Virus record (IMG/VR): IMGVR_UViG_3300032092_000106
Span: 1-37,418 of that record
DNA from: a virus
DNA length: 37,418 bases
Strand: one strand, 5' to 3'
Below are positions 13,615-37,418 of the stretch, one piece after another. Below the pieces are notes generated by a model. The model saw only the letters and a list, made by a program, of their open reading frames with translations, made no database searches and was not told the DNA's origin. Position 1 is the first letter of the stretch. Every line of letters begins with the position of its first letter. Made by a program: the position numbers and the translations under genes.

Positions 13615-13770
13615 ATGAGCGTAAAAGGAGATTGGAGTAGAGTAAAGGACACGGAATCGTATCGTAGTAATTACGATAATATTTTCCGTAAAAATAAAGA
13701 AAAAGAACCTCAAAAGGACGAAAAAGATAAAAAAGAGGAAAAAAATCCTAAAGAGGTTGACAACAATTAA
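13615..13770 (+). CDS. Small charged protein
   Basis: A 51-residue protein. MSVKGDWSRVKD... is followed by a long Lys/Glu/Asp tail, probably disordered. The start is ATG 13615, 8 bases after the previous stop. Its own stop TAA is the TAA inside the next promoter, so the gene end and the promoter overlap. Confidence 0.6.
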   Translation: MSVKGDWSRVKDTESYRSNYDNIFRKNKEKEPQKDEKDKKEEKNPKEVDNN

Positions 13771-13784
13771 AACTAGATTATAAT
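13767..13784 (+). promoter_or_regulatory. Leaderless-type promoter 1
   Basis: TTAAAACTAGATTATAAT, then GTGGGT, then ATG 13791. The stop of the upstream gene lies inside it. It is the first copy in the window and marks the start of the accessory region. Confidence 0.8.
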
Positions 13785-13790
13785 GTGGGT

Positions 13791-14207
13791 ATGATACAAT
13801 TCCACAGAAATGAAATCGACGAAGAATGGTGGGACTTGGTAAACGAGTTCCCACACATTTTTTTAGAACCAAGTCCAGAAGTATTGTCTTTGTATGAAGA
13901 ATACAAAGATGCGGAATATTCAGGATTTCCAAATAATAAGGAAGATTTATGTAATCTGAGATTTGGTTTCGAATGTAATATCAAATGGAAAGAAATCATT
14001 CGGGAATTTTGTTTGGAGATGGATGAAATTCATCGAAAGGCAAAGGAGAATGGTGATGAAGCTTTTTACTGCACATTTATCCTCAAAGAAAAATTTGGAA
14101 CTTGTCGAGACCAAGGCACAATGTTTGGCAAGGACAAGACAAAATACTATAAGGATTGGAGTGAAGCTTCGCATAGATTGTATGAAAAATCAACAAAAAT
14201 AAAATAA
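13791..14207 (+). CDS. Hypothetical protein, possibly related to the 20705 product
   Basis: A 138-residue protein. FECNIKWKEIIREFC followed by FILKEKFGTCRD parallels WQPMFEELCSKVAKI and IEQVKEKFGGLRF in the gene at 20705, so the two may be distant paralogues of a common phage family. Function is unknown. The start ATG 13791 is set by the promoter spacing; an in-frame GTG at 13785 falls inside the 6-base spacer and would precede +1. Confidence 0.65.
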   Translation: MIQFHRNEIDEEWWDLVNEFPHIFLEPSPEVLSLYEEYKDAEYSGFPNNKEDLCNLRFGFECNIKWKEIIREFCLEMDEIHRKAKENGDEAFYCTFILKEKFGTCRDQGTMFGKDKTKYYKDWSEASHRLYEKSTKIK

Positions 14208-14208
14208 T

Positions 14209-14670
14209 ATGATATTGTCAGGATTTAGAAATAATAAAAATGTTGTAGCATCGATTTCCCATTATGATTATAGGGAATTTGAAGATATTATGGCAGATGG
14301 TGGACAACCTTATACATTTGATTATGCTGGATATTCACGTTTTCGTGGAACACCATGTATATTCAAAGTTCCTCAAAATTATGCGGAATTGTATCATGAC
14401 TATCAATTCAACCGTAAAGACCGTGAATATGGTGTTTGGAAATTAAAAGATGTCGAAATTCTTCCTGACGATATTGAATTGGATATTGAAGAGTTGAAAT
14501 TCCAAAATGCTATTTGGGGAACTCGCGGTAAGAGTGGAAAAGAACCTTTAAAATATGTTCATCTGGTGGATTGTGAAACCGATCACTTAGAAGAAATATT
14601 GAAGTTGAAACAAGTAAAATCTGTGTATACTATATTTATTAACAGAATTTTGAAAGAAAGAAAACAATGA
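14209..14670 (+). CDS. Hypothetical protein
   Basis: A 153-residue protein, one base after the previous stop. The N-terminal part is aromatic and Gly-rich (YDYREFEDIMADGGQPYTFDYAGYSRFRG) and the C-terminal part is acidic. No recognised domain. It overlaps the following gene by 4 bases, so it belongs to the unit read from promoter 1. Confidence 0.6.
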   Translation: MILSGFRNNKNVVASISHYDYREFEDIMADGGQPYTFDYAGYSRFRGTPCIFKVPQNYAELYHDYQFNRKDREYGVWKLKDVEILPDDIELDIEELKFQNAIWGTRGKSGKEPLKYVHLVDCETDHLEEILKLKQVKSVYTIFINRILKERKQ

Positions 14671-15131
14671 GTGATAATCAATTATCCACACAAGTAGAAG
14701 ATCTCAAAAAAGAGCTTACTGAAGCAAGAGAACTTATACAAATGCATAAAGAATTCCGCGAATCTCTGTATTTACCAGAACGTAGAAGATTGAATGAGCA
14801 GAAATATTTGTATGATCAATATGATCTTGCTTGTGAAGAGCTTGGAATTGGAAAACTTTCAACAGATGAAGGGGATACACTTTTAGAAGCAGTGTGCCGT
14901 TTGAAAAGCGAGCTTGCAGAAGCGAAAAAGCAACTTACCGAAGGAAAGGAATCATGGAGATTTTCCAGTGTATGTAGAGAATCGAGGCATCAACTTGACA
15001 CATTGGTGGCGGCTTTATATAGAATCATGAAACTTACAACTCCTGACCCAAACATGCCTTATTGTAACGATGACAGGATTTATGGGATTGCAAAAGATAC
15101 CCTAGCCACAGTGAAAGAGTATGAACAATAA
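14667..15131 (+). CDS. Coiled-coil hypothetical protein
   Basis: A 154-residue protein. Residues about 4-35 and 73-95 show heptad-like patterns rich in Leu, Glu and Lys (QVEDLKKELTEARELI; LKSELAEAKKQL), interrupted by a central segment. The C terminus has a short conserved-looking stretch ending in TVKEYEQ. It is similar in design, and perhaps in origin, to the product of 31942-32388. The upstream AAAGAAAG could act as a weak ribosome binding site, one of few in the window. Confidence 0.65.
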   Translation: MSDNQLSTQVEDLKKELTEARELIQMHKEFRESLYLPERRRLNEQKYLYDQYDLACEELGIGKLSTDEGDTLLEAVCRLKSELAEAKKQLTEGKESWRFSSVCRESRHQLDTLVAALYRIMKLTTPDPNMPYCNDDRIYGIAKDTLATVKEYEQ

Positions 15132-15133
15132 TT

Positions 15134-15151
15134 TTAAAACTAGAATATACT
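15134..15151 (+). promoter_or_regulatory. Leaderless-type promoter 2
   Basis: TTAAAACTAGAATATACT, TAAAAC, ATG 15158. It starts 2 bases after the upstream stop codon. Confidence 0.8.
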
Positions 15152-15157
15152 TAAAAC

Positions 15158-15361
15158 ATGACTATTACACAAGCAATTAATGAGCTAAAGGATCGATGGG
15201 GATATGACTTCACAGAGTTGAATCACATCCAAGAATTGATGGAAGAAGTGGCATCTAAGACCTATACTATGGGTTATTTGGATGGTGACATTGATGCAAA
15301 ACAAGCTGAAGCATCTTCTGAGAAGGGATTCGTGTCTTATGGTAAACCCGAAGATTGGTAA
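15158..15361 (+). CDS. Small hypothetical protein
   Basis: A 67-residue protein with a helical N terminus (TQAINELKDRWGYDF) and a Glu/Asp-rich centre. No domain is recognised. The start is fixed by promoter 2. The RNA ligase gene follows 8 bases after its stop without its own promoter, so the two are probably co-transcribed. Confidence 0.65.
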   Translation: MTITQAINELKDRWGYDFTELNHIQELMEEVASKTYTMGYLDGDIDAKQAEASSEKGFVSYGKPEDW

Positions 15362-15369
15362 AATATAAT

Positions 15370-16731
15370 ATGATTAAAAAATCAGAAAATCATGATACAA
15401 ATTACCTCGCAACGGTAGTTGAAATTGATAATCTCAAGAATCACCCAAACGCAGAGAGATTGGAAATTTTCGAGATTTATGGTGGAAATGTTATCGTAGC
15501 CAAAGGTCAATATCCTATTGGTTCGAAAGTCGTTTATTTCCCCATTGAAACAAAAATCAGTGGTGAATTTCTTCATTGGGCGAATCTTTTCGATAAGCCA
15601 GAGATGAATGCTGATGGTAAGACGAAAGGTTTCTTCTCCACGAAACAGCAAAGAGTTCGTCCAATCAAATTGAGGGAGATTCCATCAGAAGGTTTTGTCT
15701 ATCCAGTCGATAAGTTGTCTGAATTCTTTGGGGTATCTACAAATGTCTTCAATGTTGGCGAATCTTTCGATATGGTCGGTGACAAGGTTCTTTTGGAGAA
15801 GTGGGTATCTGGTGAGAAACCTGTTCAAAATTCTGCCAAAAAGGTTGTATTACCTAAATGGTTGCAGATTCTTCCAAAACCTGTTCGCAAATTTATCGGA
15901 CAACGTTTTTATAGCAAAAAAGATGATGGTATCGGTTCACAAATTGTGAAAGGTCAATTTCAATTTCATTATTCGACTCCTCAACTTGGCAAATCGATGT
16001 TTTTGATCGATCCAGAAGATGATATTACGATTTCGGACAAGTGGCACGGAATTTCAGCAGTCTTTTCGCGGGTTCTTTGCCACCAACAAAGGAACTGGTT
16101 GCAGAAATTGTTGGGTGTTTCTAATGATAGACTTGCTAAAGAATATCGCAATATTTACAGCAGTCGTAGTGTGATTAAAAATCGTAGAGATGGTCAATAC
16201 ACCGATGATCTATGGGGTAAATGGGCTAGAGAACTTTTTGAAAATTGTTCTCTGAAAGATGGTGTGAGTATATATGGCGAAATCGTTGGTTATGTCAATC
16301 ATTCTAAAATGGTTCAAAAAGGTTACGATTATTCATGTAAACCAGATGAAAATAAATTATATGTTTATCGAATTACTCATACTGATGATAATGGAAATGT
16401 TCATGAGTATTCATTCAATGAGATACGTGATTATTGTGATTTCCAAGATTTGGAAACAGTTCCTATCTTCTATCAAGGTAAAGCAAAAGACCTATTCTCA
16501 AATATTGCTATCGATGATGAATGGCGTAAGAATTTCTTACACTCTCTGAGTGAGAAATACTTAGAGAAAAATTGTCAATTCTGTAAGACTAAAGTTCCTG
16601 CCGAGGGTATCGTTCTTCGTATCGAATCGAAAGACAATAAACCTGCTCTGAAATTGAAAAGCTTCCGTTTCAAAGAGAAAGAATCTAAGGAGCGTGACAG
16701 TGGAGAATCCAACATTGAAGAAGAGTCTTAA
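15370..16731 (+). CDS. RNA ligase, Rnl5 (DRB0094) family
   Basis: A 453-residue protein. It has the two-part layout of Deinococcus Rnl5: an N-terminal OB-like domain (residues 1-150, with DNLKNHPNAERLEIFEI and GSKVVYFPIET) and a C-terminal adenylyltransferase domain. The AMP-accepting lysine is Lys224 in KWHGISAVFSR (motif I). SIYGEIVGYV is motif IIIa, EGIVLRIES is motif IV, and LKLKSFRFKEKES is motif V. Enzymes of this family seal 3'-OH/5'-phosphate RNA nicks. In a phage this fits repair of tRNA or rRNA cut by host nucleases. I chose ATG 15370; an upstream in-frame TTG overlaps the previous stop. It is the longest gene of the accessory region. Confidence 0.88.
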   Translation: MIKKSENHDTNYLATVVEIDNLKNHPNAERLEIFEIYGGNVIVAKGQYPIGSKVVYFPIETKISGEFLHWANLFDKPEMNADGKTKGFFSTKQQRVRPIKLREIPSEGFVYPVDKLSEFFGVSTNVFNVGESFDMVGDKVLLEKWVSGEKPVQNSAKKVVLPKWLQILPKPVRKFIGQRFYSKKDDGIGSQIVKGQFQFHYSTPQLGKSMFLIDPEDDITISDKWHGISAVFSRVLCHQQRNWLQKLLGVSNDRLAKEYRNIYSSRSVIKNRRDGQYTDDLWGKWARELFENCSLKDGVSIYGEIVGYVNHSKMVQKGYDYSCKPDENKLYVYRITHTDDNGNVHEYSFNEIRDYCDFQDLETVPIFYQGKAKDLFSNIAIDDEWRKNFLHSLSEKYLEKNCQFCKTKVPAEGIVLRIESKDNKPALKLKSFRFKEKESKERDSGESNIEEES

Positions 16732-16742
16732 AAATCCATTAA

Positions 16743-16760
16743 TTAAAACTAGATTATACT
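16743..16760 (+). promoter_or_regulatory. Leaderless-type promoter 3
   Basis: TTAAAACTAGATTATACT, TTGGGC, ATG 16767. Confidence 0.8.
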
Positions 16761-16766
16761 TTGGGC

Positions 16767-16961
16767 ATGACAAAGATTCTCAATAATATCAAAAATAAAT
16801 TCTTCAGGTGGTTGCTCGTTCGTCGTCATGGTGAAGTTGAGGCAAATCGTATGATCCTTGGTGCGAGATTGATGGGTAATCATTTACATCGTTTCAATCA
16901 TGGTGGATGGTTGGTGAATACTTACAATTCCAAAGGTGAAAGGGTAGTATTTTTTAAATGA
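16767..16961 (+). CDS. Small basic hypothetical protein
   Basis: A 64-residue protein, Arg/Lys/His-rich (FFRWLLVRRHGEVEANRM, HLHRFNHGGWLV), pI clearly high. It could bind nucleic acid. No family recognised. The start ATG 16767 is set by the 6-base spacing; an in-frame ATG at 16761 lies within the spacer. Confidence 0.6.
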   Translation: MTKILNNIKNKFFRWLLVRRHGEVEANRMILGARLMGNHLHRFNHGGWLVNTYNSKGERVVFFK

Positions 16962-16993
16962 GTAAGTATCTGATATAATCAATAACATAAGAT

Positions 16994-17536
16994 ATGTATA
17001 TAACACTCATTAGACATGCTCAGTCATTGGGGAATGCTGATCACACCATTTACCATAAAATGATGGATCATGAAATACCTTTGACTGAAAAGGGAGTAAA
17101 GGATGCAGAAAAAAAATATTCATCCGAAAAACTATATAATCAAATTTATTATTCACCATATACTAGATGTGTTCATACCAAAAATTTATTGTTTGGAGAT
17201 AGTAAAGGAATTGAAAATCCATTATTGATCGAGAGACAATGGGGTCAATTACGAAATCTTGTCGGCACTAAAAATTTTGATAAAAAAGTTCATTTCAACT
17301 TCTTTTATCGACCACAAAATGGAGAATCTTTTTTTGATGTCTACCAAAGAGTTGCTTTATTTTTTGAGTTTATTAAAAGTCGTCATTCAACTCTTCACAA
17401 TATATGCATAGTTTCACATGGTGAGTGGATAAAAGTGGCTTGTATGTATCTGGAAGGAAATACCGTTGAGGATTTTCATAATGATCGATCAAGAATTACA
17501 AATTTAAGTGAGAGAATAAAATATTTTGAATTTTAA
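16994..17536 (+). CDS. Histidine phosphatase (phosphoglycerate mutase fold)
   Basis: A 180-residue protein. LIRHAQSLGNA (residues 4-14) is the RHG-type phosphohistidine motif, YSPYTRCVHT supplies the second catalytic Arg, and IVSHGEWIKV near residue 141 the second His. It should dephosphorylate a small metabolite, nucleotide or protein. The 32 bases upstream contain a TATAAT (about 16973) but not the conserved promoter. Its stop shares bases with the ATG of the repeat protein gene that follows (TAATG). Confidence 0.8.
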   Translation: MYITLIRHAQSLGNADHTIYHKMMDHEIPLTEKGVKDAEKKYSSEKLYNQIYYSPYTRCVHTKNLLFGDSKGIENPLLIERQWGQLRNLVGTKNFDKKVHFNFFYRPQNGESFFDVYQRVALFFEFIKSRHSTLHNICIVSHGEWIKVACMYLEGNTVEDFHNDRSRITNLSERIKYFEF

Positions 17537-17766
17537 TGGATATTGATAATAAAACGTTCTTTTCTGTTCGGAATTCTGTTTGGAATTCTGTTTGGGGTTC
17601 TCTTCATCATTCTGTTTGGGATTCTGTTGGGGATTCTGTTGGGGGTTTTGTTGGGGGTTTTGTTAGGGATTCTGTTGGGGGTTTTGTTGGGGATTCTGTT
17701 GAGGGTTCTGTTGGGGGTTCTGTTCATCATTTTGTTGGGAACAAATTGAAAAGATATAAATTTTAA
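17536..17766 (+). CDS. Tetrapeptide-repeat small protein (SVxx family, copy A)
   Basis: A 76-residue protein. After MDIDNK the sequence is about 15 tandem tetrapeptides of the form [S/F]Vxx (SVWD SVGD SVGG FVGG FVRD ...), then the C-terminal NKLKRYKF. The DNA is a 12-bp repeat (GTTGGGGATTCT-like), so all forward frames and one reverse frame stay open; the chosen frame is supported by the shared start and end in the other copies. No known domain matches; pentapeptide repeats have a different period. A beta-helix or amphipathic surface is possible. The stop TAA is the first TAA of promoter 4. Confidence 0.7.
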   Translation: MDIDNKTFFSVRNSVWNSVWGSLHHSVWDSVGDSVGGFVGGFVRDSVGGFVGDSVEGSVGGSVHHFVGNKLKRYKF

Positions 17767-17780
17767 AACTAGAATATAAT
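17763..17780 (+). promoter_or_regulatory. Leaderless-type promoter 4
   Basis: TTAAAACTAGAATATAAT, ACTTAC, ATG 17787. The upstream repeat gene ends TTT TAA inside it. Confidence 0.85.
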
Positions 17781-17786
17781 ACTTAC

Positions 17787-18128
17787 ATGAGTAAGTTACC
17801 TTCATTCAATATTATCAGAATCCCATTAGGAATGTCTATGGTTATTATTGGAACTGCTATTGCATCCATAGCCAACATTGTTCCTTATTTTCTAGGTGCT
17901 ATCATCTCTATTATTGGAGCATGGATTTTTTCAAAGAATATAAACCCATATTTTCGTGGAGGATTTTTTTGGATAATTTTCGGTCTACCTCTATTTTTGT
18001 TTTCTCTTCTACCAAATTCTTTTCTTTGGTTGAATTATTTTGAAGTATCCAACATGACAATTTGTGTGGCAAGATTTATTGGTGTGTTTATCGGAGCTAT
18101 TTCCTTTTTGATGGTATATGAAGATTGA
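17787..18128 (+). CDS. Small membrane protein, 3-4 transmembrane helices
   Basis: A 113-residue hydrophobic protein with predicted membrane segments at about residues 12-30, 34-50, 56-75 and 90-110. A short basic or polar stretch separates helix 2 from helix 3. It probably inserts in the host inner membrane. Function is unknown; an exclusion or lysis-control role is only a guess. It overlaps the next gene by 11 bases. Confidence 0.7.
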   Translation: MSKLPSFNIIRIPLGMSMVIIGTAIASIANIVPYFLGAIISIIGAWIFSKNINPYFRGGFFWIIFGLPLFLFSLLPNSFLWLNYFEVSNMTICVARFIGVFIGAISFLMVYED

Positions 18129-19372: not shown

Positions 19373-19869
19373 AATATTATGCTGGGATTGGTTCTAGAAA
19401 GACACCACCCAACATCCTTAAAGAAATGAAACTACTAGCCTCTCAATTGGAAGAGAGAGGCTGGTGGTTGCGTTCTGGTGGTGCTGGTGGTGCTGATGAA
19501 TCATTTGCTGACGGTGTTGAGGAGAAGGCAGAGATATGGCTACCATGGGAAGGTTTTGTGAAAACACCTAACCCTCTTCATACTTACCGTATCATATCAA
19601 GCGATGATGAAGAATCATTTCAATCAATATCCAAATATCATCCAAGACCAAAATCTCTGTCCAAATCTGGTGAATCTTTAATGGCACGTAACTATAGACA
19701 AGTTATCGGTAATCCTAATAGTGATTTCATAATTTGTTGGACACCTAATGGTGAGATTTGTGGTGGAACTGGTCAAGCTCTCAGAATAGCTAAAGATAAA
19801 AAAATTACCATTTTCAATATGTTTTTTGACAGTAGAGAAGATATCTTAAACATAATCTCATTATTTTAA
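19369..19869 (+). CDS. SLOG-fold (DprA/YspA-like) protein
   Basis: A 166-residue protein. YAGIGSRKTPPNIL (residues 4-17) and RSGGAGGADESFADGV (about 35-50) are the two glycine motifs of the SLOG/LOG-like Rossmann fold, which binds nucleotides or nucleotide-derived ligands. IWLPWEGF and the late GGTGQALRIAKDKKI segment also fit. Its role in phages is not established; SLOG proteins elsewhere act as ligand sensors or nucleotide-processing enzymes. The ATG at 19369 overlaps the upstream stop, preferred over 19357. Its stop lies inside promoter 5. Confidence 0.75.
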   Translation: MKYYAGIGSRKTPPNILKEMKLLASQLEERGWWLRSGGAGGADESFADGVEEKAEIWLPWEGFVKTPNPLHTYRIISSDDEESFQSISKYHPRPKSLSKSGESLMARNYRQVIGNPNSDFIICWTPNGEICGGTGQALRIAKDKKITIFNMFFDSREDILNIISLF

Positions 19870-19883
19870 AACTAGAATATAAT
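19866..19883 (+). promoter_or_regulatory. Leaderless-type promoter 5
   Basis: TTAAAACTAGAATATAAT, AACAAT, ATG 19890. The upstream gene stops at the TTT TAA at its left edge. Confidence 0.85.
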
Positions 19884-19889
19884 AACAAT

Positions 19890-21707: not shown

Positions 21708-21725
21708 TTAAAACTAGAATATAAT
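21708..21725 (+). promoter_or_regulatory. Leaderless-type promoter 6
   Basis: TTAAAACTAGAATATAAT, AGGCTC, ATG 21732. Confidence 0.8.
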
Positions 21726-22512: not shown

Positions 22513-23158
22513 AAAACACCGAAAGGATTATAATAATATATATTTTATGTCCGATAGTCACTATGGACATAATAGAGATTTTTTATATAATCCAAGAGGA
22601 TTCAATAGTGCCGAAGAACATAATCAATGGATGGATGAACAGATATCCAATCTTCATCCAAAAGACCTATTGATTCATGCTGGTGACGTAGGATTGTCTA
22701 TTGGCTTTAGAGGAGTCCAAGAGTTTATGAACAGATTTCCATGCGAGACATTGATGGTATGGGGTAATCATAATTCTGGTGTGGTGCAAGCATATAAACA
22801 AGCATTGCCAAGAGGTTTTGACAATTTTGAAGTATATCCATTAACCATCGTTAAAAATATTCAAATGATGGGCAGCGATTTTCTGTTAGATATTGACCAG
22901 AATTTCTTTTATATTAAACATATGGCTCCATTGATCTGGGATGATATGAATAAAGGAGAAGCATCAAGATTTTGCGTGTGTGGACATTCTCATGGAAACT
23001 TGAAGGGTGCTAATCCAAATGATCATGGACTCGGTAAAATTTTGGATGCTGGTGTAGAAAATTCCATCAAATACAATGGAACAGCATTCTTCTCATTGGA
23101 TGATGTGATAAACATTATGAAAAACAAAGAAGTTTCAGTGGTGGATCATCATGAGTAA
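22499..23158 (+). CDS. Calcineurin-like metallophosphoesterase
   Basis: A 219-residue protein with all metal motifs in order: YFMSDSHYGH (DxH), LIHAGDVG (GD), MVWGNHNSG (GNH), IKHMAPL, and VCGHSHG (GHxH). It belongs to the short phage/bacterial phosphoesterase group. The substrate is unknown; 2',3'-cyclic phosphates or other nucleotides are plausible. Together with the RNA ligase and the 2H phosphoesterase it may take part in RNA end repair (inference). The last codons overlap the following repeat gene. Confidence 0.85.
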   Translation: MLKIKKHRKDYNNIYFMSDSHYGHNRDFLYNPRGFNSAEEHNQWMDEQISNLHPKDLLIHAGDVGLSIGFRGVQEFMNRFPCETLMVWGNHNSGVVQAYKQALPRGFDNFEVYPLTIVKNIQMMGSDFLLDIDQNFFYIKHMAPLIWDDMNKGEASRFCVCGHSHGNLKGANPNDHGLGKILDAGVENSIKYNGTAFFSLDDVINIMKNKEVSVVDHHE

Positions 23159-23381
23159 AGATATTGATACAATATTGGATCATAATAACAATATGATGAT
23201 CTATATTCGGGATTCTGTTGGGAATTCTGTTGGGGGTTCTGTTCGAGATTCTGTATGGTTTTCTGTTCGGGATTCTGTTAAGGATTCTGTTGAGGATTCT
23301 GTATGGTATTCTGTTCGGGATTCTGTATGGGATTCTGTTCGGAATCCTGTTAGGAATAAATTGGATAGTTATAAATTTTAA
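23151..23381 (+). CDS. Tetrapeptide-repeat small protein (SVxx family, copy B)
   Basis: A 76-residue protein. A 23-residue N-terminal part that differs from copy A (MSKDIDTILDHNNN...) is followed by 12 tetrapeptides (SVGN SVGG SVRD SVWF SVRD SVKD SVED ...) and the C-terminal NKLDSYKF. The repeat positions carry more charged residues than copy A. It begins inside the last codons of the phosphoesterase gene. Function unknown. Confidence 0.7.
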   Translation: MSKDIDTILDHNNNMMIYIRDSVGNSVGGSVRDSVWFSVRDSVKDSVEDSVWYSVRDSVWDSVRNPVRNKLDSYKF

Positions 23382-23868: not shown

Positions 23869-23981
23869 TCGGTAGTCAAAACAGTGACAGCAGGAGAGAC
23901 TGCAATTTCGAATAGTTTAAGTTAGAAAAAACATCCTCTAAAAAGGAAAATGTTGGTGCAAATCCAATTTCGAAAACCTAA

Positions 23982-23999
23982 TTAAAACTAGATCATACT
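23982..23999 (+). promoter_or_regulatory. Leaderless-type promoter 7
   Basis: TTAAAACTAGATCATACT, TGTCGT, ATG 24006. It is one of the more divergent -10 boxes (CATACT). Confidence 0.75.
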
Positions 24000-24502: not shown

Positions 24503-24520
24503 TTAAAACTAGAATATAAT
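24503..24520 (+). promoter_or_regulatory. Leaderless-type promoter 8 (GTG start)
   Basis: TTAAAACTAGAATATAAT, TCAAAT, GTG 24527. The overlapping ATG two bases earlier is closed by TAG after two codons, so only the GTG at the fixed distance opens the gene. The preceding GATATAAA is also found at the end of repeat gene copy A. Confidence 0.85.
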
Positions 24521-24526: not shown

Positions 24527-24967
24527 GTGCTAGACTTACGATCAAGTAGTGGTATAATAAATGTCGGACGCGAAAGAATCGTGGTCGATCTATCAAATGA
24601 TTTTGTGGATTATTACCATTGGTTCGTGAAAAGAAAGTATTGGGTTGTTTTACAGACCCCATTACATGGCGCACATATCACGATTGCAACCAGTAAAATA
24701 TATAAAAATGTGAATTGGGATCGAGCAAAAGATTTTTATAAGATGAAGATTGACTTTGATTATTCTGTTGATATGATCCATGGAGGAAGGTCAAAAGGGT
24801 TTGATATGTTTTATCTGGAGGTATTCTCCGATGAAATTGATTTGATTAAAAAAGACATTGGAGCAATTGATGATGAAAAATATCGTGGTCTACACGTTAC
24901 AATCGGAAATTTTGGTAAAAGCGGTTCATACAAAAAATTATGGTATCCAGAGATTATAAAATTGTAA
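24527..24967 (+). CDS. 2H phosphoesterase, Acb1 (T4 57B)-like candidate
   Basis: A 146-residue protein with two HxT motifs, HIT at 50-52 (LHGAHITIATS) and HVT at 123-125 (GLHVTIGN), the signature of 2H phosphoesterases. Length, motif spacing (73 residues) and the aromatic YYHWFVKRKYW region near residue 30 resemble the T4 57B group. T4 57B is Acb1, which cleaves the cyclic oligonucleotide signals of CBASS defence. This product could therefore be an anti-defence enzyme, or act on RNA 2',3'-cyclic ends as other 2H enzymes do. It starts with GTG, which is the only start compatible with promoter 8. Confidence 0.7.
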   Translation: MLDLRSSSGIINVGRERIVVDLSNDFVDYYHWFVKRKYWVVLQTPLHGAHITIATSKIYKNVNWDRAKDFYKMKIDFDYSVDMIHGGRSKGFDMFYLEVFSDEIDLIKKDIGAIDDEKYRGLHVTIGNFGKSGSYKKLWYPEIIKL

Positions 24968-25149
24968 GTGAAATAGCATTATTTAGATCATTTTTAGTTC
25001 AGGATGTTTCAAAAAAAATATCCGCTAAATTAGTGGTAGGTGAACTTATACCGAATATCATGTCTAATGTTGGTGACACAATCTTTAATCAATTGCTGGA
25101 TAAAACAGAAAGGCATTTATTAGATTATGATTTTAAAACTAGATTATAA
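24940..25149 (+). CDS. Small hypothetical protein ending inside a promoter
   Basis: A 69-residue open frame overlapping the 2H gene by 28 bases. It has a mixed helical pattern (IVSEIALFRSFLVQDVSKKISAKLVV). The C terminus DFKTRL and the stop TAA are encoded by promoter 9 itself. It fills a stretch with no other gene, but the start is uncertain and a shorter product is possible. Confidence 0.45.
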   Translation: MVSRDYKIVSEIALFRSFLVQDVSKKISAKLVVGELIPNIMSNVGDTIFNQLLDKTERHLLDYDFKTRL

Positions 25150-25150
25150 T
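25133..25150 (+). promoter_or_regulatory. Leaderless-type promoter 9
   Basis: TTAAAACTAGATTATAAT, AACAAC, ATG 25157. Confidence 0.8.
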
Positions 25151-26327: not shown

Positions 26328-26498
26328 ATGGATATTAATAATGAAGTATTGAGTTCTTTTCGGTTTAGTATTGCGGGATCTTTTGTAAATTTTGTTTCTA
26401 ATTCTGCTTCTAATTCTGTCTGGTTTTCTGTAAGGAAGTCTGTTCACAATTCTGTTTGCATGTCTGTTGGACATAAATTGTATAGTTATGAATTTTAA
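26328..26498 (+). CDS. Tetrapeptide-repeat small protein (SVxx family, copy C)
   Basis: A 56-residue protein, MDINNE..., with degenerate tetrapeptides (FRFS, FVNF, SASN SVWF SVRK SVHN SVCM) and the end SVGHKLYSYEF. Start (MDI.N), repeat register and C terminus match copies A, E and F, so it is a diverged member. It starts just after the possible terminator and ends where the late promoter of 26512 begins. Confidence 0.65.
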   Translation: MDINNEVLSSFRFSIAGSFVNFVSNSASNSVWFSVRKSVHNSVCMSVGHKLYSYEF

Positions 26499-28007: not shown

Positions 28008-28206
28008 AAATACTGACACCGAAAGAAAAATTCGGAACACAGTTGCCAGTGCTGTATGGAATCACGTTGAAGACCCTTGCTGGTTGAATGTGAAAAATTC
28101 TATCGAAATTCCTGTCATGGATCATGTTCGAGATTTTGTTTTTAGTCCTTGTAGAAACCTTTATGAGCGTGAGGTTATAAAACATTTGGAAAAAAACAAT
28201 TTTTAA
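27967..28206 (+). CDS. Tetrapeptide-repeat small protein (SVxx family, diverged copy D)
   Basis: A 79-residue protein. The centre (NTVASAVWNHVEDPCWLNVKN, then IPVMDHVRDFVFSP) keeps V every fourth position in part, but the DNA repeat has decayed. The C terminus EVIKHLEKNNF replaces NKLxSYxF. It lies directly before promoter 10, as copy A does before promoter 4 and F before 11, and its stop is inside that promoter. Start ATG 27967 overlaps the gene before it. Confidence 0.55.
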   Translation: MSQKQDSQNHLKVENTDTERKIRNTVASAVWNHVEDPCWLNVKNSIEIPVMDHVRDFVFSPCRNLYEREVIKHLEKNNF

Positions 28207-28220
28207 AACTAGAATATAAT
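28203..28220 (+). promoter_or_regulatory. Leaderless-type promoter 10 (start codon lost)
   Basis: TTAAAACTAGAATATAAT, TCTGGC, then ACG at the position where every other copy but one has ATG or GTG. Confidence 0.75.
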
Positions 28221-28226: not shown

Positions 28227-28256
28227 ACGACAAACAAACCGAGCCAATTACAATAA
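28227..28256 (+). pseudogene. Remnant of a leaderless gene (ACG for ATG)
   Basis: ACG ACA AAC at +1 mirrors the ATG ACA AAC of the gene at 33073. The frame closes with TAA after nine codons, and a new TTGACA promoter begins on the next base. The simplest view is a gene deleted to its first codons whose start then mutated; a genuine non-coding leader is the alternative. Confidence 0.35.
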
Positions 28257-29529: not shown

Positions 29530-29700
29530 ATGGATATTGGTAATAAAGTATGGGAATCTGTTCGGGATTCTGTTTGGGATTCTGTTGAGGATTCTGTTGA
29601 GAATTATATTTTTTATTTTGTTTGTGATTCTATTTGTTATTATGTTGGGAATTCTGTTCAGGGTTCTGTTGGAAATAAATTGAGTAGTTATGAATTTTAA
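29530..29700 (+). CDS. Tetrapeptide-repeat small protein (SVxx family, copy E)
   Basis: A 56-residue protein: MDIGNKVWE, then SVRD SVWD SVED SVEN, a diverged aromatic middle (YIFYFVCDSICYYVGN), SVQG SV, and the end GNKLSSYEF. Its first bases and last bases are nearly identical to those of copy F, which follows after two bases, so E and F are a tandem duplication with different internal wear. Confidence 0.7.
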   Translation: MDIGNKVWESVRDSVWDSVEDSVENYIFYFVCDSICYYVGNSVQGSVGNKLSSYEF

Positions 29701-29702: not shown

Positions 29703-29897
29703 ATGGATATTGATAATAAAGTATGGGAATCTGTATGGTTTTCTGTTGGGAATTCTGTTGGGGATTCTGTTCGAGATTCTGTATGGTTTTCTGTTCGGGA
29801 TTCTGTTTGGAAAACTGTTGGGGATTATGTTCGGGGTTCTGTATGGTTTTCTGTTCAGGGTTCTGTTGAGAGTAAATTGGATAGTTATGAATTTTAA
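29703..29897 (+). CDS. Tetrapeptide-repeat small protein (SVxx family, copy F)
   Basis: A 64-residue protein: MDIDNKVWE, 12 tetrapeptides (SVWF SVGN SVGD SVRD SVWF SVRD SVWK TVGD YVRG SVWF SVQG SVES), then KLDSYEF. It is the most regular copy after A and B. Its stop TAA opens promoter 11 of the ATPase gene. Other frames stay open because the DNA repeats every 12 bases; the start and end shared with A and E support this frame. Confidence 0.7.
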   Translation: MDIDNKVWESVWFSVGNSVGDSVRDSVWFSVRDSVWKTVGDYVRGSVWFSVQGSVESKLDSYEF

Positions 29898-29911
29898 AAC
29901 TAGAATATACT
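29894..29911 (+). promoter_or_regulatory. Leaderless-type promoter 11
   Basis: TTAAAACTAGAATATACT, TTTGAC, ATG 29918. Copy F's TTT TAA overlaps it. Confidence 0.85.
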
Positions 29912-31697: not shown

Positions 31698-31715
31698 TTA
31701 AAACTAGAATATAAT
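31698..31715 (+). promoter_or_regulatory. Leaderless-type promoter 12 (ATA at +1)
   Basis: TTAAAACTAGAATATAAT, ACGCAT, then ATA at 31722 in place of ATG. The ATA is in frame with the gene that starts at ATG 31752. Confidence 0.75.
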
Positions 31716-31751
31716 ACGCATATAGCAAACAAAAACACACAAAAAAATACA

Positions 31752-32626: not shown

Positions 32627-32648
32627 TAAATTAATTTAAACTTTGGAT

Positions 32649-33014
32649 ATGAAAAAAAATCAACTAATAGAACAACTTCAAAAAATCAAAGGCAATCCAG
32701 ATATCAAAATGTGGAACGGTCTTGTAGAAGACTGGATGAACATTGAAATTGTAGAATGTGAATTGGTTAAACGATGTGCAGAAAATGTTCGTTGGGGTAT
32801 CGAAACAGAATGGAAGCAGAAAAATCGGTCTAAGGAAATCCCCGCTGATGTTCAAAAATATCTTGACCAGATCATCAAAGAGCAAATCAGAGAAGAAGAA
32901 TGGGAGTTTCCAAATAAATACTTGGACGAAGAGGGAGAAAAAAGATGGTATGGCAAAAACAGAAAAAAAGTCGTAATGATTGATGCCAAACGAAAAAAAC
33001 AAAACGTATGCTGA
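32649..33014 (+). CDS. Conserved phage hypothetical protein
   Basis: A 121-residue charged protein. MKKNQLIEQLQKIKGNPDIKMWNGLVEDWMNI is a start shared by a family of phage proteins of unknown function. The rest is Lys/Glu-rich helix. Upstream, TAAACT, TTGGAT, ATG keeps the 6-base spacing but the AAAACTAG box is missing, so this may be a decayed copy of the conserved promoter. Confidence 0.6.
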   Translation: MKKNQLIEQLQKIKGNPDIKMWNGLVEDWMNIEIVECELVKRCAENVRWGIETEWKQKNRSKEIPADVQKYLDQIIKEQIREEEWEFPNKYLDEEGEKRWYGKNRKKVVMIDAKRKKQNVC

Positions 33015-33048
33015 CCGACTTGGAGAAATCAAATACTAAAACAACCGA

Positions 33049-33066
33049 TTAAAACTAGAATATACT
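33049..33066 (+). promoter_or_regulatory. Leaderless-type promoter 13
   Basis: TTAAAACTAGAATATACT, GATCAC, ATG 33073. Confidence 0.8.
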
Positions 33067-33072
33067 GATCAC

Positions 33073-33567
33073 ATGACAAACACAAACACAAACATCCAAT
33101 CATTGACTGCAAGCGAAATCCTTTCCAACTTTTTCAAAGGTAAAGGACAATTCATGCGAGTAGCATGGAAAAGCAATGAGAAACCAGCAGCATCTTACAA
33201 AGATGTTGTATTGGAAAAGCGCACCACGACAATTGTTCGTTCTGGTGTTGAGTTTAAGAATCTTTCTAGCGTCAAAGCAGGGATCGAATCTGGTGAACGT
33301 GGTGAAGTTCAAGAACTTCCATGGGGTGAGTGGGTTCAATACCCTCACCTCATCAAGCATAAAGATTCCTACTACTGCCGTGTTTATCCTACGGATTCGA
33401 TTCCAGTGGTAAAATATCTTGCCAGCGGCGAAGAAGTCGATAAGGAGAAATATGCATCATATCTCACTCCATCATCGGCTCAGAAATTGCTGGGTGAGAA
33501 AGAAAAGCCAGAATGCTTCACCATCAAGATGGAGAACATTATTTCCACGGAAGAGGTGATCAATTGA
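33073..33567 (+). CDS. Hypothetical protein
   Basis: A 164-residue protein. An N-terminal Thr/Asn-rich stretch is followed by a domain with KGQFMRVAWKSNEKP and ERGEVQELPWGEWVQYPHLIKHKDSYYCRVYP; the latter half looks like a small beta domain. No family assigned. It is the gene immediately upstream of the tRNA, and the two may share a transcript. Confidence 0.65.
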   Translation: MTNTNTNIQSLTASEILSNFFKGKGQFMRVAWKSNEKPAASYKDVVLEKRTTTIVRSGVEFKNLSSVKAGIESGERGEVQELPWGEWVQYPHLIKHKDSYYCRVYPTDSIPVVKYLASGEEVDKEKYASYLTPSSAQKLLGEKEKPECFTIKMENIISTEEVIN

Positions 33568-33583
33568 TCATCTCTTGTAGATG

Positions 33584-33682
33584 GATGATGTGGTGTAGTG
33601 GTAGCACGACAAATCCGAACTGTTCAAAGCAGATTAGGTATCCAAAATGGTTGCGTGGGTTCGATTCCCACCATCATCCCCA
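33584..33682 (+). tRNA. Atypical tRNA (isotype uncertain), CCA encoded
   Basis: The acceptor stem GATGATG (33584-33590) pairs with CATCATC (33672-33678), the D arm is GTGT/GCAC (33593-33607) and the T arm is GTGGG-TTCGATT-CCCAC (33655-33671). C, then CCA (33680-33682), follows. Between D and T arms there are 47 bases where about 23 are usual. Two readings of the anticodon arm are possible: loop ATCCGAA (CCG, Arg) with a 30-base variable arm, or loop TTCAAAG (CAA, Leu) in a stem with a mismatch and ten extra bases before it. Neither is clean. It may be a class II tRNA with a long arm, a tRNA with an insertion, or a decayed one. Promoter 14 starts on the next base. Confidence 0.65.
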
Positions 33683-33700
33683 TTAAAACTAGAATATAAT
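33683..33700 (+). promoter_or_regulatory. Leaderless-type promoter 14
   Basis: TTAAAACTAGAATATAAT, AAAAGC, ATG 33707. It directly abuts the tRNA 3' CCA. Confidence 0.85.
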
Positions 33701-33706
33701 AAAAGC

Positions 33707-34228
33707 ATGAAAACATTCAATAATCTGAAAGAACTGTGTGTCGATGGTGGTTATGATAACTTTTATCAATTCGGACGTTCTCTTTATAAATTCAGTTACG
33801 GTCTTTGGACTAGATTGATTCTCGATGATGGTTCGGAAGTTTACTACGAAGACAAGTCTGGAAGCACCATTCCCGACAATGCGGTTGCATTGGAGATTGG
33901 TGGTATCGTAGAGGGCAGTGAAGTTGAAATCGATGCTGTTCGTCTGACATTCCCATTCACGGACAAAAAATTGTGGGAGACTGTTGAATTGATTAATGAG
34001 GAAGTAAATTTCTACTGGAAACGAGACAACGAGGACGACTACCAAGTGGAACACGATGGAAAATTCTATTACATTTGTGGTGAAGAATTTCCAGAAGATA
34101 TGAGTGAAAACGTCAAAACATTTTTCGATGAATCATACGATGAAATTTGTGAACTGGATGATGGTGAGAGTCTTGAGAAGGATGGTTTCAAAGTTACCAA
34201 GATCGATAAATCGGATTTCATCTTTTAA
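33707..34228 (+). CDS. Hypothetical acidic protein
   Basis: A 173-residue protein, strongly acidic, especially the C-terminal third (EEFPEDMSENVKTFFDESYDEICELDDGESLEKDGF). The N-terminal half is aromatic (DNFYQFGRSLYKFSYGLWTRL). It could be a DNA mimic or a binding partner of a basic protein; that is speculation. The start is set by promoter 14 and the stop lies inside promoter 15. Confidence 0.65.
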   Translation: MKTFNNLKELCVDGGYDNFYQFGRSLYKFSYGLWTRLILDDGSEVYYEDKSGSTIPDNAVALEIGGIVEGSEVEIDAVRLTFPFTDKKLWETVELINEEVNFYWKRDNEDDYQVEHDGKFYYICGEEFPEDMSENVKTFFDESYDEICELDDGESLEKDGFKVTKIDKSDFIF

Positions 34229-34242
34229 AACTAGAATATAAT
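34225..34242 (+). promoter_or_regulatory. Leaderless-type promoter 15
   Basis: TTAAAACTAGAATATAAT, CGAGAC, ATG 34249. Confidence 0.85.
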
Positions 34243-34248
34243 CGAGAC

Positions 34249-34701
34249 ATGCAAACGGACACTGATTATAAAAATCGTCAAAGTCAATTGGAGCAAGAGG
34301 GTTTGAATACTTTTTGCATGAAGATTCTTGATTCGGAATTGGTAATCGATACGGATTATGAACCAGAGAATGAGGGTGATCCCATCGCTTATCGCACCAA
34401 GGATCATATGTTCATGTTTGTTCCAAAAATGGATGATCCAGTTGTCAGAAAGACTTTGCATGGTGACAGAAAAATTCATAACCAGTATCGTTACTCTGTC
34501 GAAGTCGGTATGTCCATTGGTGGTGATCATTGGTCTCCTCCAGATTATGATCAAGTGGAGATTGCAAGAGGTGACTCATTGTTTGAATGCATTTCTATGG
34601 CAGCACATTATCTTCTGGATCAGAAAATCCAACACATAAATGAGGAGATTTATTGGGATATGCATTACAAACTTGAGGATGAATTTCCTGTCGAATTTTA
34701 A
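34249..34701 (+). CDS. Hypothetical acidic protein
   Basis: A 150-residue protein, acidic, with a central strand-rich part (MFMFVPKMDDPVVRKTLHGDRKIHNQYRYSVEVG) and a helical C terminus. No domain recognised. A single gene between promoters 15 and 16, sharing its stop with promoter 16. Confidence 0.65.
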   Translation: MQTDTDYKNRQSQLEQEGLNTFCMKILDSELVIDTDYEPENEGDPIAYRTKDHMFMFVPKMDDPVVRKTLHGDRKIHNQYRYSVEVGMSIGGDHWSPPDYDQVEIARGDSLFECISMAAHYLLDQKIQHINEEIYWDMHYKLEDEFPVEF

Positions 34702-34715
34702 AACTAGAATACACT
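34698..34715 (+). promoter_or_regulatory. Leaderless-type promoter 16
   Basis: TTAAAACTAGAATACACT, ATTACC, ATG 34722. Confidence 0.8.
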
Positions 34716-34721
34716 ATTACC

Positions 34722-35480
34722 ATGACAACGTTTGAAACAATCGCTAAAGCATTCCGTCACAATTCAGGTAAAAACCCTTTTGACTCTGGTGACTACTACG
34801 GTAGACACTATGACAAGCCACCCATCGAAGAGAAAACACCGATGGTTACTATCGATATCTATCGTAATGATGATATCAATGCTACTATCGAGACTGCGGT
34901 GTTTCTCGCAGAGACTTGTGAAGTCGATGAAGATATTCAAAAACAATTTGAAGAGTGGGCAGAAATGGATGAGAATTCCGATCTGTCATGGTTTGAAGCA
35001 GGTGAGAAATTCGCTACAGAAGTTCTTGGATTGACTCAGAAAGCAAGAGACAACACTTGCAATGGTGAGAGTGATCTGTCACAAAATTATGTGTGGGAGG
35101 TCTATTCTGAAAATGACAACGGTGATTGGATTTACGATGACGATGCACTGATGGTTGTTTATGCACACACTGGTTGCGATCTTCGTTCTGGTTACTCATA
35201 CCCGATCTTCCTTCGTCATCAAGGTGACTATTCTATTCCTGTCGATATTGTCGCAGAGTGGTATATCTCAGAGGGTCGCTTGAATGGTGAAGTCTTGAGC
35301 AATAATGATCTTTGTGATCTGTATGAGCAATACCAATGTGGTTACTCGTCCAATCCATCTTATGAGTTGTCAAAAGATTTGGAGCGTGTTTTTCACTTCA
35401 CCAAGAAAGTGGACTCAGTGGTGGTTAAATTGAAAAGTGGTGAGATTGTAAAAATCCATGCCAGTGCGAGAGTATATTGA
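34722..35480 (+). CDS. Conserved phage hypothetical protein
   Basis: A 252-residue acidic protein. The middle (DNTCNGESDLSQNYVWEVYSE, then DDALMVVYAHTGCDLRSGYSYPIFLRHQGD) is a block that recurs in large-phage hypotheticals. Conserved Asn/Gln/Asp/His residues there could form an active site, but no known enzyme family matches. The first 60 residues are polar and probably variable. Singly transcribed from promoter 16. Confidence 0.65.
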   Translation: MTTFETIAKAFRHNSGKNPFDSGDYYGRHYDKPPIEEKTPMVTIDIYRNDDINATIETAVFLAETCEVDEDIQKQFEEWAEMDENSDLSWFEAGEKFATEVLGLTQKARDNTCNGESDLSQNYVWEVYSENDNGDWIYDDDALMVVYAHTGCDLRSGYSYPIFLRHQGDYSIPVDIVAEWYISEGRLNGEVLSNNDLCDLYEQYQCGYSSNPSYELSKDLERVFHFTKKVDSVVVKLKSGEIVKIHASARVY

Positions 35481-35516
35481 AAGTAATATTCGTAGGCAAT
35501 TCTATAATCAATATGT

Positions 35517-35534
35517 TTAAAATTAGATTACACT
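35517..35534 (+). promoter_or_regulatory. Leaderless-type promoter 17 (variant)
   Basis: TTAAAATTAGATTACACT, ATTAAC, ATG 35541. It has AAAATTAG in place of AAAACTAG, the only change in that box among the complete copies. Confidence 0.75.
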
Positions 35535-35540
35535 ATTAAC

Positions 35541-35732
35541 ATGACTTACGATATTGAAGATGTTCGCGAATATGTTGAAGGATTTTTATGGACTAAAGCA
35601 TATAAAAAAGAATTGACTATGAATGAAATTCTCGCCATGTTAAACAATGCACTAGCAAGTATCGAAGATGGTGATGATGGACTTGATGCTTATATTGAGA
35701 GACAAAAATACTATGAAAACATTAAAGGATAA
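35541..35732 (+). CDS. Small hypothetical protein
   Basis: A 63-residue acidic helical protein (YDIEDVREYVEGFLWTKAYKKELTMNEILAMLNNAL). Start at the promoter's +1. It overlaps the next small gene by 20 bases. Confidence 0.6.
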   Translation: MTYDIEDVREYVEGFLWTKAYKKELTMNEILAMLNNALASIEDGDDGLDAYIERQKYYENIKG

Positions 35733-35781
35733 AGATTTGGAAATTGATGATCTAACAGATTTGGATTGGACACTAGAATGA
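35713..35781 (+). CDS. Possible 22-residue peptide
   Basis: ATG 35713 opens MKTLKDKDLEIDDLTDLDWT..., ending at a TGA that overlaps the next gene's ATG (ATGA). The tight overlaps on both sides suggest a translated linker gene that couples its neighbours, but its length makes this uncertain. Confidence 0.4.
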   Translation: MKTLKDKDLEIDDLTDLDWTLE

Positions 35782-35993
35782 AAAAGTTAGAAATACCTAG
35801 CGATATATTGGATTTGATTGGCACTACTATAAAGATTAGTGGTAACAAACATTTCACTCAAAACGGTGAGAAATACTATGTATTGAAACATGGTAATGGT
35901 CACATATATGAGATGGATGGTGATGAACGACCAGAGGGAATCAGAGTTTGGCGCGATGGTCAATATATCGGTGATATTAAAACTAGAATATAA
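35778..35993 (+). CDS. Small hypothetical protein ending inside a promoter
   Basis: A 71-residue protein, mixed alpha/beta (DLIGTTIKISGNKHFTQNGEKYYVLKHGNG; EGIRVWRDGQYIG). The last residues IKTRI and the stop are encoded by promoter 18, so the promoter sequence is also protein-coding here. No family recognised. Confidence 0.6.
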   Translation: MKKLEIPSDILDLIGTTIKISGNKHFTQNGEKYYVLKHGNGHIYEMDGDERPEGIRVWRDGQYIGDIKTRI

Positions 35994-35994
35994 T
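35977..35994 (+). promoter_or_regulatory. Leaderless-type promoter 18
   Basis: TTAAAACTAGAATATAAT, ACACAT, ATG 36001. Read in the upstream gene's frame it encodes IKTRI and a stop. Confidence 0.85.
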
Positions 35995-36000
35995 ACACAT

Positions 36001-36198
36001 ATGCAACTAAAAGACATACATCTCGGAATGGTGGTTCGCGTGAATTTACCAGATGATAATAGAATTGGTTACGTTAGAGATGTAGAAGAGACACCCAGTG
36101 GATTGCCAATCTTTGCAATTCGCTTCTCTGATGGTTTCGAGAGATTATTATTTCCAGAAGAATTTGATAAAGCAGATGAAGATCATACCTCCCGATAA
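36001..36198 (+). CDS. Small hypothetical protein
   Basis: A 65-residue protein. LGMVVRVNLPDDNRIGYVRDVEET, then FAIRFSDGFERLLFPEEF, is a likely small beta-barrel of the type seen in phage proteins of unknown function. It overlaps the next gene by 23 bases. Confidence 0.6.
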   Translation: MQLKDIHLGMVVRVNLPDDNRIGYVRDVEETPSGLPIFAIRFSDGFERLLFPEEFDKADEDHTSR

Positions 36199-36385
36199 AC
36201 TCATGGATTTTATCCATGCAGCAGAACAATTTAAAATGAAACATCATACCATACGCGAAGGACAAGCGTATATGAATGTTCTGTTTGAAATGTATCCAGA
36301 AATCTATAGAAGAATTACTGGAACAGAATATGATTGCTTCTACGATGATTCGCGTATCTCCCATTTCTTTTCGGAGATCTCTTAA
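36176..36385 (+). CDS. Conserved small phage protein
   Basis: A 69-residue protein. The C-terminal part, REGQAYMNVLFEMYPEIYRRITGTEYDCFYDDSRI, matches a pattern repeated in phage hypotheticals (GQa.mN.l.e..Pe.y..itgt..DcFYdd.RI). Function unknown. ATG 36176 is preferred over longer in-frame starts that would run over the previous gene. Confidence 0.65.
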   Translation: MKIIPPDKLMDFIHAAEQFKMKHHTIREGQAYMNVLFEMYPEIYRRITGTEYDCFYDDSRISHFFSEIS

Positions 36386-36403
36386 TTAAAACTAGAATAC
36401 AAT
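36386..36403 (+). promoter_or_regulatory. Leaderless-type promoter 19
   Basis: TTAAAACTAGAATACAAT, GTGGAC, ATG 36410. Confidence 0.8.
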
Positions 36404-36409
36404 GTGGAC

Positions 36410-36601
36410 ATGAAGATTGTTCAACTTACTATGGAACACGTTCAAATAGGAACGAATGTATCTGAACTTCCAGTATATTTCACAGGAACGAAGAAGCAAT
36501 GTATCGGAATGATGCATCGTTTTGTATTCGTAAAGGATGAAAGTCTTTTCGGTGGTTACTGGAGAAATGAGAGTGGTGATTGCTATTACCTTATTCCATG
36601 A
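36410..36601 (+). CDS. Small hypothetical protein
   Basis: A 63-residue protein with a probable beta-rich fold (VYFTGTKKQCIGMMHRFVFVKDESLFGGYWRNE). No family recognised. It is a single gene between promoters 19 and 20. An in-frame GTG at 36404 is inside the spacer and is rejected. Confidence 0.6.
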   Translation: MKIVQLTMEHVQIGTNVSELPVYFTGTKKQCIGMMHRFVFVKDESLFGGYWRNESGDCYYLIP

Positions 36602-36608
36602 TCAACAA

Positions 36609-36626
36609 TTAAAACTAGAATATAAT
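36609..36626 (+). promoter_or_regulatory. Leaderless-type promoter 20
   Basis: TTAAAACTAGAATATAAT, AGACAC, ATG 36633. Confidence 0.85.
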
Positions 36627-36632
36627 AGACAC

Positions 36633-37415
36633 ATGAACGACAACAAAATTCGTGAAAAGCTCGCTAAAATGCTCGCACTTGCCAGTGATGGTAACGCCAC
36701 ACAGGGAGAGATTGAAAATGCTCTTGCTATGGCAACACAGATGATGGTTAAGTATAACCTTACTCGCGATGATATTGATATGACTCAAGCCGATCCTATC
36801 AAGAATATCAAGTATTCCAAGAATCAAGCATACACACTCTCCCCCAAGTTGTATTCGTGGGAAGGTTCATTGGCAGTGTTCATCTCCAAATTCATTGGAA
36901 CTGTTGATTGCTATGTTCAGAGGGGTAAATACCCAAAACGTATCAATGGTCTTCAACAATTCGATGGTGATGGTAATCCTATTCATAGTTGCATGATTAC
37001 ATTCTATGGTGTGGAAGACGATTGTGAGATTGCCACAGCACTCTATCATGAGCTACAGAAAGCTATCCAGATGGCAGCACTTGTGCGCTATGGTGCATGG
37101 GCTAAGGGTGATGGTGGAGTTTATTGTGAAGGTTTCGTGCAGGGTTTGAGAGACTCTAACATTCGTGAGATTCAAAAATTGAAGAACTGCGATGCACAGA
37201 CAAGTTCTCTGATTCTATTGTCCGAAAAAACACAGTTGGCAATCCGTAATGAGGCTAAAAATTGGCTGAAACAAAATACAAATGTTTGTCTTCGTGCTGG
37301 TCAAAGAACTACAGGATCATCTGGTTCTCATAGTGCGAGAGCAGAGGGTCGTGCCGATGGTTCTCGATACAGTGTGGAGAAGGGACAAGCAACACGTAAG
37401 ATCGCTTACAATTAA
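36633..37415 (+). CDS. DUF2786-domain protein
   Basis: A 260-residue protein. The N terminus IREKLAKMLALASDGNATQGEIENALAMATQMMVKYNL is the DUF2786 helix pair. A DUF7168-like core follows (WEGSLAVFISKFIGTVDCY; MITFYGVEDDCEIATALYHEL). The C-terminal 40 residues are Ser/Gly/Arg-rich and probably flexible. The family is common in phages and plasmids and has no established function. Its stop TAA lies in the next promoter, cut by the window end. Confidence 0.8.
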   Translation: MNDNKIREKLAKMLALASDGNATQGEIENALAMATQMMVKYNLTRDDIDMTQADPIKNIKYSKNQAYTLSPKLYSWEGSLAVFISKFIGTVDCYVQRGKYPKRINGLQQFDGDGNPIHSCMITFYGVEDDCEIATALYHELQKAIQMAALVRYGAWAKGDGGVYCEGFVQGLRDSNIREIQKLKNCDAQTSSLILLSEKTQLAIRNEAKNWLKQNTNVCLRAGQRTTGSSGSHSARAEGRADGSRYSVEKGQATRKIAYN

Positions 37416-37418
37416 AAC
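37412..37418 (+). promoter_or_regulatory. Leaderless-type promoter 21 (cut by window end)
   Basis: TTAAAAC at the right edge, overlapping the stop of the DUF2786 gene in the usual way. Confidence 0.6.

Follow-up and report, generated by a model that had tools for sequence, protein, structure and literature searches.

The box element and its distance from start codons

The window, which is the whole viral record IMGVR_UViG_3300032092_000106 (37,418 nucleotides), is a partial genome (37 kb) of a T4-like myovirus, with a tail sheath gene at 3384-6122 and a tail tube gene at 7724-8296. It contains 20 copies of a putative promoter box, TTAAAACTAGAATATAAT, all on the + strand between 13767 and 36634 and confined to the part of the contig with small, mostly non-structural genes. 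A first-pass annotation had read these copies as a leaderless promoter, in which a box is fused to a -10 element lying six bases before the start codon. The comparison with related phages presented here indicates that this finding is real and wider than had been claimed.

Each copy comprises an element of 18 nt, and in 20/20 copies a spacer of 6 nt separates the end of its -10 hexamer from the triplet at the predicted start. The recounted triplets were ATG in 17 copies and GTG (24527), ACG (28227) and ATA (31722) in one each, and the base at -1 was C in 14/20 and T in 6/20, hence always a pyrimidine, in full agreement with the earlier counts. AAAACTAGNNTATAAT, with at most two mismatches, was observed 19 times, against 0.9 expected from dinucleotide shuffles.

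The first copy, TTAAAACTAGATTATAAT (13767-13784), has its predicted +1 at ATG 13791 and carries TTGACA at -34 to -29. It is followed by boxes at 15134-15151, 16743-16760, 17763-17780, 19866-19883 and 21708-21725, with predicted +1 at ATG 15158, 16767, 17787, 19890 and 21732, respectively. The copy at 23982-23999 (ATG 24006) has a weak -10, CATACT; the next one (24503-24520) would start at GTG 24527, in a gene family that has a box promoter in 9/9 genomes compared. Further copies are at 25133-25150 (ATG 25157), 28203-28220 (ACG 28227), 29894-29911 (ATG 29918, an ATPase-like P-loop gene with a box in 8/8 homologues), 31698-31715 (ATA 31722), 33049-33066 (ATG 33073, box in 7/7 homologues) and, directly 3' of a tRNA gene, 33683-33700 (ATG 33707). 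The last ones are at 34225-34242 (ATG 34249), 34698-34715 (ATG 34722), 35517-35534 (a degenerate copy, TTAAAATTAGATTACACT; ATG 35541), 35977-35994 (ATG 36001), 36386-36403 (ATG 36410) and 36609-36626 (ATG 36633). The onset of a 21st copy (TTAAAAC, 37412-37418, +) is cut by the contig end. Since the ATA at 31722 is followed 30 nt downstream by an in-frame ATG (31752), and the ACG at 28227, which is not a start codon, opens a reading frame of only 9 codons, these two copies are more likely short-leader promoters, giving leadered transcripts, than leaderless starts.

The structural part of the window displayed a different signal. TAAATA, which forms the core of late promoters in T4, was present five times exactly 5 nt before an ATG: on the + strand at 3373-3378 (ATG 3384, tail sheath gene), 6941-6946 (ATG 6952), 7713-7718 (ATG 7724, tail tube gene) and 8403-8408 (ATG 8414, tail-tube-like gene), and on the - strand at 3296-3301 (gene 1923-3290). 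In T4, the late box and the start site downstream of it are about one helical turn apart (PMC2988020), and with this geometry the predicted start site is the A of the ATG. The late class would share the start-on-AUG geometry, a point missed by the first-pass annotation, which understated its own case. That two promoters of different build have the same geometry suggests that transcription begins on the start codon.

Conservation of the box and its spacing in related phages

When IMG/VR was scanned with the sheath protein, 80 loci with 50-71% identity were retrieved, and 14 large records of relatives were read in tiles. The identity of the sheath with that of the closest cultured phages is about 40% and is limited to the C-terminal third. 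The related uncultured T4-like phages each carry 10-75 copies of the box at the spacing of the window, and the pattern occurs in more than 117 IMG/VR stretches, many of which have several copies. The full window motif had no exact match in viral contigs; the relatives differ from it by one extra A (TTAAAAACTAG) or by another -10. When all AAAACTA heptamers were considered, the distance from their start to an ATG was 22 nt for 75/132 in record G005, 62/118 in G004, 52/117 in G008, 39/93 in G006, 31/49 in G003 and 30/51 in G015, i.e. for between roughly a third and two thirds of them, with a minor peak at 25 nt. This search for a fixed spacing, which had been named beforehand as a check, thus disclosed both the identical spacing and a second one, 3 nt longer.

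The pooled set comprised 497 ATG-linked box sites across the clade. Their -10 hexamer (T77 A98 N A86 A75 T96, in %) followed the sigma70 hierarchy, A-11 (98%) and T-7 (96%) being the most conserved bases, and the base at -1 was a pyrimidine in 96%. The conserved element TTAAAACTA occupied -24 to -16, and -36 to -27 were without conservation. The TGn of extended -10 promoters was absent (-15, G in 67%; -14, A in 77%; -13, mixed). When only the -10 bases and the pyrimidine/purine at -1/+1 were required, ATG stood at +1 in 398 of the 554 boxes retained. The earlier statement that the box is neither a -35 element, nor an extended -10, nor a MotA box is strongly supported by these comparisons. Its companion, that there is no -35 box, holds for most copies; it fails for the TTGACA-bearing copy at 13767, and TTGACA-like hexamers are slightly over-represented clade-wide (25/497 at -35 and -34 combined, other positions having about 5 each). 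Some promoters combine TTGACA with the box, and a few canonical TTGACA/TATAAT promoters lack the box; from their sequence, the TTGACA-containing ones could be the first to fire. A canonical promoter (TTGACA, 15 nt, TATAAT) with a G-rich stretch after it was also seen to be conserved near uvsW and gp55 in three relatives (tiles L100:9832, +; L116:12094, +; L124, -, offset 11785), possibly for a small RNA or an origin.

The promoters with the 25-nt spacing consist of the box, the -10, six bases usually ending with a pyrimidine, ACC or ATC, and then ATG. The purine at +1 is still 6 nt past the -10, and it is the ATG that is shifted by 3 nt. The box is therefore tied to +1 and not to the codon, which is the behaviour of a promoter rather than of a translation signal. 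An alternative is that the element works at the RNA level: the mRNAs would be longer and leadered, and it would enhance translation or be a processing site just ahead of their start codons. It does adjoin start codons, in phages that are devoid of Shine-Dalgarno motifs. Yet, the typical hierarchy of the -10 hexamer, the constant distance to the purine in the 25-nt class, the two window copies with no start codon at +1 and the convergence of the unrelated late TAAATA on the same geometry all make this very unlikely. In the 25-nt subclass, seen in G005 (tiles L094-L104), G004 (L111-L120) and G006 (L121-L130), the -10 hexamers (TAAGAT, TAAACT, TAAAAT) are weaker than those of the leaderless subclass, and for this reason its regulation may be separate.

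De novo k-mer counting at fixed offsets revealed AACACTA at position -22 in G002 and AAAACCG in G009. The box sequence thus varies by lineage (AAAACTA, AACACTA, AAAACCG) while its position is constant. This bears on another explanation, namely that short leaders merely result from gene packing and that the exact spacing is a by-product of a recent duplication of a promoter cassette. The copies of one genome are indeed near-identical and frequently overlap the stop codon of the preceding gene. However, a TTA is common at -25 to -23 and the flanks cannot be aligned beyond it, lineages with other box sequences have the identical spacing, and the same trait is seen in the late promoters, which are built independently. 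We regard this explanation as highly improbable.

The late class in relatives and separate regulons

The clade's putative counterpart of the T4 late TATAAATA-like box, TAAATA at -11 to -6 from ATG, was enriched in all larger relatives, the records above 60 kb having 14-48 TAAATA exactly 11 nt before an ATG. A homologue of gp55 was found in seven relatives; G005 encodes gp55 (phrog_234, E 1.9e-23) and the gp45 clamp (phrog_223, E 1.1e-8), in a part of the genome that lies outside the window. The annotated late families include sheath and tube. Comparison of orthologues gave one cross-class pair, as opposed to hundreds within a class, indicating that the box and late classes are separate regulons.

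Start codons and Shine-Dalgarno motifs

The predicted starts were compared with N-termini of orthologues from other genomes with less than 85% identity, for 382 box, 65 three-nt-leader and 404 late starts. For box genes, the start residue was identical in 158 of about 223 pairs, nearly all others being 1-3 residues off; for late genes, 433 pairs were at offset 0. In 14 orthologue pairs, a 22-nt promoter in one genome was matched by a 25-nt promoter in the other, with an unchanged N-terminus. The frequency of Shine-Dalgarno-like tetramers was 0.01 for late, 0.03 for box and 0.08 for other genes, against a background of 0.10-0.12; in T4 it was 0.31-0.62, depending on the gene set. Operon-internal genes of the clade are also without Shine-Dalgarno motifs and show an enrichment of A at -3, -6 and -11 to -13.

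Control phages and cellular genomes

Controls were T4, HTVC008M, S-SM2, Pseudoalteromonas phage XG4, marine virus AG-345-P14, Sinorhizobium phage phiM19, Ochrobactrum phage OC and Rhodothermus phage RM378 (35-50 kb of each, RM378 whole). In these eight T4-like phages, TAAATA at 11 nt was found 0-2 times per stretch with no peak, and there was no repeated heptamer at -22. The distance from the start of TAAATA to the nearest ATG in T4 was mostly 18-46 nt, with a peak at 33-34. Among the phages examined, the predicted start-on-AUG trait is restricted to the uncultured clade. We rejected a membership of the far-T4 (RM378) group, or a sharing of promoters with RM378, as this phage gave no promoter signal and G005 proteins had better and commoner matches to the S-SM2, HTVC008M or T4 stretches than to the whole of RM378 (19 versus 7 proteins). 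By these matches, they are more similar to proteins of cyanophages and Pelagibacter phages than to those of RM378. In 257 Gb of bacterial and archaeal genomes (one for each of 84,980 species), the box with its 6-nt spacing occurred as 10 scattered singletons in unrelated taxa, which is about chance by our rough estimate. No matching description of a leaderless phage promoter class was found in the open-access literature searched.

The proposed reader of the box

The chance-level occurrence of the box in cellular genomes and its drift between phage lineages indirectly favour a phage-encoded reader, one of the options proposed for the window. The heptamer is fixed, lacks dyad symmetry and lies one turn nearer to the -10 than the MotA box does, which suggests that a protein binds next to sigma. 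With moderate confidence, the sequence evidence points to a box that requires a phage factor; the factor itself was not found.

Several observations weigh against this interpretation. The domain PF04542 (sigma70 region 2) gave weak matches, in 7/10 records, to one open reading frame per record; this was the gp55 gene, the sole sigma-like gene, and a second phage sigma factor was rejected. With phmmer, T4 MotA, AsiA and RpbA had no match in 10 relatives and the window, a search that could miss remote homologues. When 73 early-region proteins of G008 were scanned against Pfam and PHROG, no recognised regulator appeared among the families listed (at most 25). A universal protein (family 12; 12774-13262 in the window) has a predicted winged-helix N-terminus. 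Its AlphaFold model shows the winged helix at about residues 10-70, with a predicted local distance difference test (pLDDT) score of about 72-91 there and 61 for the whole model; structural matches were weak (Z at most 5.4) and a PDB profile search gave no match. We do not favour this candidate, because its recognition helix is poorly conserved and varies among phages with one common box, which ill suits the reading of an invariant sequence. Furthermore, the clade members are all uncultured and the start sites are predicted from promoter geometry.

The absence of a second sigma and of a known T4 activator would also be expected if unmodified host RNA polymerase read the box, through an element for housekeeping sigma or with a host transcription factor, no phage factor being needed. 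The -10 is host-like, a few copies also have TTGACA, and T4 early promoters do not require a phage factor (PMC6024815). What this explanation fails to account for is that the pattern is at about chance level in the 84,980 species and that the box sequence varies by phage lineage. The invariant heptamer is a further difficulty: seven invariant bases in the spacer are, to our knowledge, not a known sigma70 contact. We consider reading by the host enzyme as possible but rather unlikely, and retain a phage-encoded activator as the preferred explanation.

The host could not be assigned through misbinned contigs, the sheath search of genome contigs giving no relative. Bacteroidota were considered, as their lack of Shine-Dalgarno motifs and A-rich leaders resemble what is seen in these phages (PMC6847099) and T4-like genomes have been assigned to marine Bacteroidetes (PMC7198788). 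This host was not adopted: the Bacteroidota promoter TTG-N-TAnnTTTG was not consistently enriched in the phages, TTGAC/TAYAAT being enriched in several, and the mRNAs of Flavobacterium johnsoniae are mostly leadered (PMC6847099).

Other features of the window

Two tRNA genes are present at 33584-33679 (96 nt, missed by ARAGORN) and 23906-23978 (the anticodon call gave no result). Five-residue D-S-V-x-x repeats, encoded by 15-nt tandem units, occur in small genes dispersed over the early region (17536-17766, 23151-23381, 26328-26498, 29530-29700 and 29703-29897). The GTG-started gene at 24527-24967 encodes two H-x-T motifs (HITIA, HVTIG) that resemble those of 2H phosphoesterases, e.g. the anti-CBASS protein Acb1. 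This likeness is a lead only, since no relative came up in a PDB profile search.

Discussion

We propose that the box element is a transcription promoter of a clade of T4-like phages. Its sigma70-type -10 would set +1 on the A of the start codon, or on that of an ACC/ATC 3 nt earlier, and the invariant heptamer at -22 to -16 would be the sequence-specific site, devoid of dyad symmetry, of an activator. The latter would most likely be phage-encoded and sit beside the -10 element, replacing the contact with a -35. Virion genes would be served by a T4-type late promoter of their own (TAAATA, gp55), which shares the start-on-AUG geometry. With both promoter classes fused to the start codon, non-structural and virion mRNAs would be leaderless or have a 3-nt leader.

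From promoter geometry and conservation, we have high confidence that these are promoters whose +1 coincides with the start codon or precedes it by 3 nt. It is quite probable, on the same grounds, that they produce leaderless or 3-nt-leader mRNAs from a sigma70-type -10 combined with a phage-specific activator box, and that the late class behaves alike. The leaderless mRNAs predicted in the first-pass annotation have strong comparative support as far as predicted starts are concerned, apart from those of the ACG and ATA copies. Its proposal of a new middle/early promoter class is plausible; early and middle are not separable from sequence, and the label covers both. We are evenly divided on a bolder view, in which the whole transcription programme has been rewired onto AUG and a new phage-encoded, non-sigma activator acts at -20 on a site drifting between AAAACTA, AACACTA and AAAACCG.

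If true, this clade would be a natural system for the genome-scale study of leaderless initiation, both temporal classes being fused to start codons. Gene finders would gain an exact rule for locating start codons in a group of uncultured aquatic phages, and the box would point to an undiscovered mode of activation, in which bacterial RNA polymerase is contacted from a site between -35 and -10.

Known systems share parts of this organization. The MotA box of T4 middle promoters lies about 12 bp upstream of the -10 and is centred near -30. Like the clade's promoters, these middle promoters form a phage-wide, non-structural class with a sigma70-type -10, no -35 and, upstream, a box of about 9 bp that has no dyad symmetry. 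However, the MotA box differs in sequence from TTGCTTTA, and the clade's box, centred near -20, is about one helical turn closer; furthermore, MotA and AsiA are not detectable here (phmmer), and the transcripts are predicted to be leaderless. T4 late promoters have in common with the late class TAAATA at the -10 position, as predicted for the clade, and homologues of gp55 and gp45, but in T4 the ATG is mostly 18-46 nt from the start of TAAATA, as compared with 11 nt in the clade, where leaderless transcripts are predicted. Extended -10 promoters also join an upstream element directly to the -10 and dispense with a -35; unlike them, the clade lacks TGn and has seven invariant bases at -22 to -16. 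Leaderless transcripts are known from phages as single cases, e.g. lambda cI. As in bacterial leaderless mRNAs and lambda cI, the transcript would begin at AUG, but here this would apply to dozens of genes, in two promoter classes and with a dedicated upstream box.

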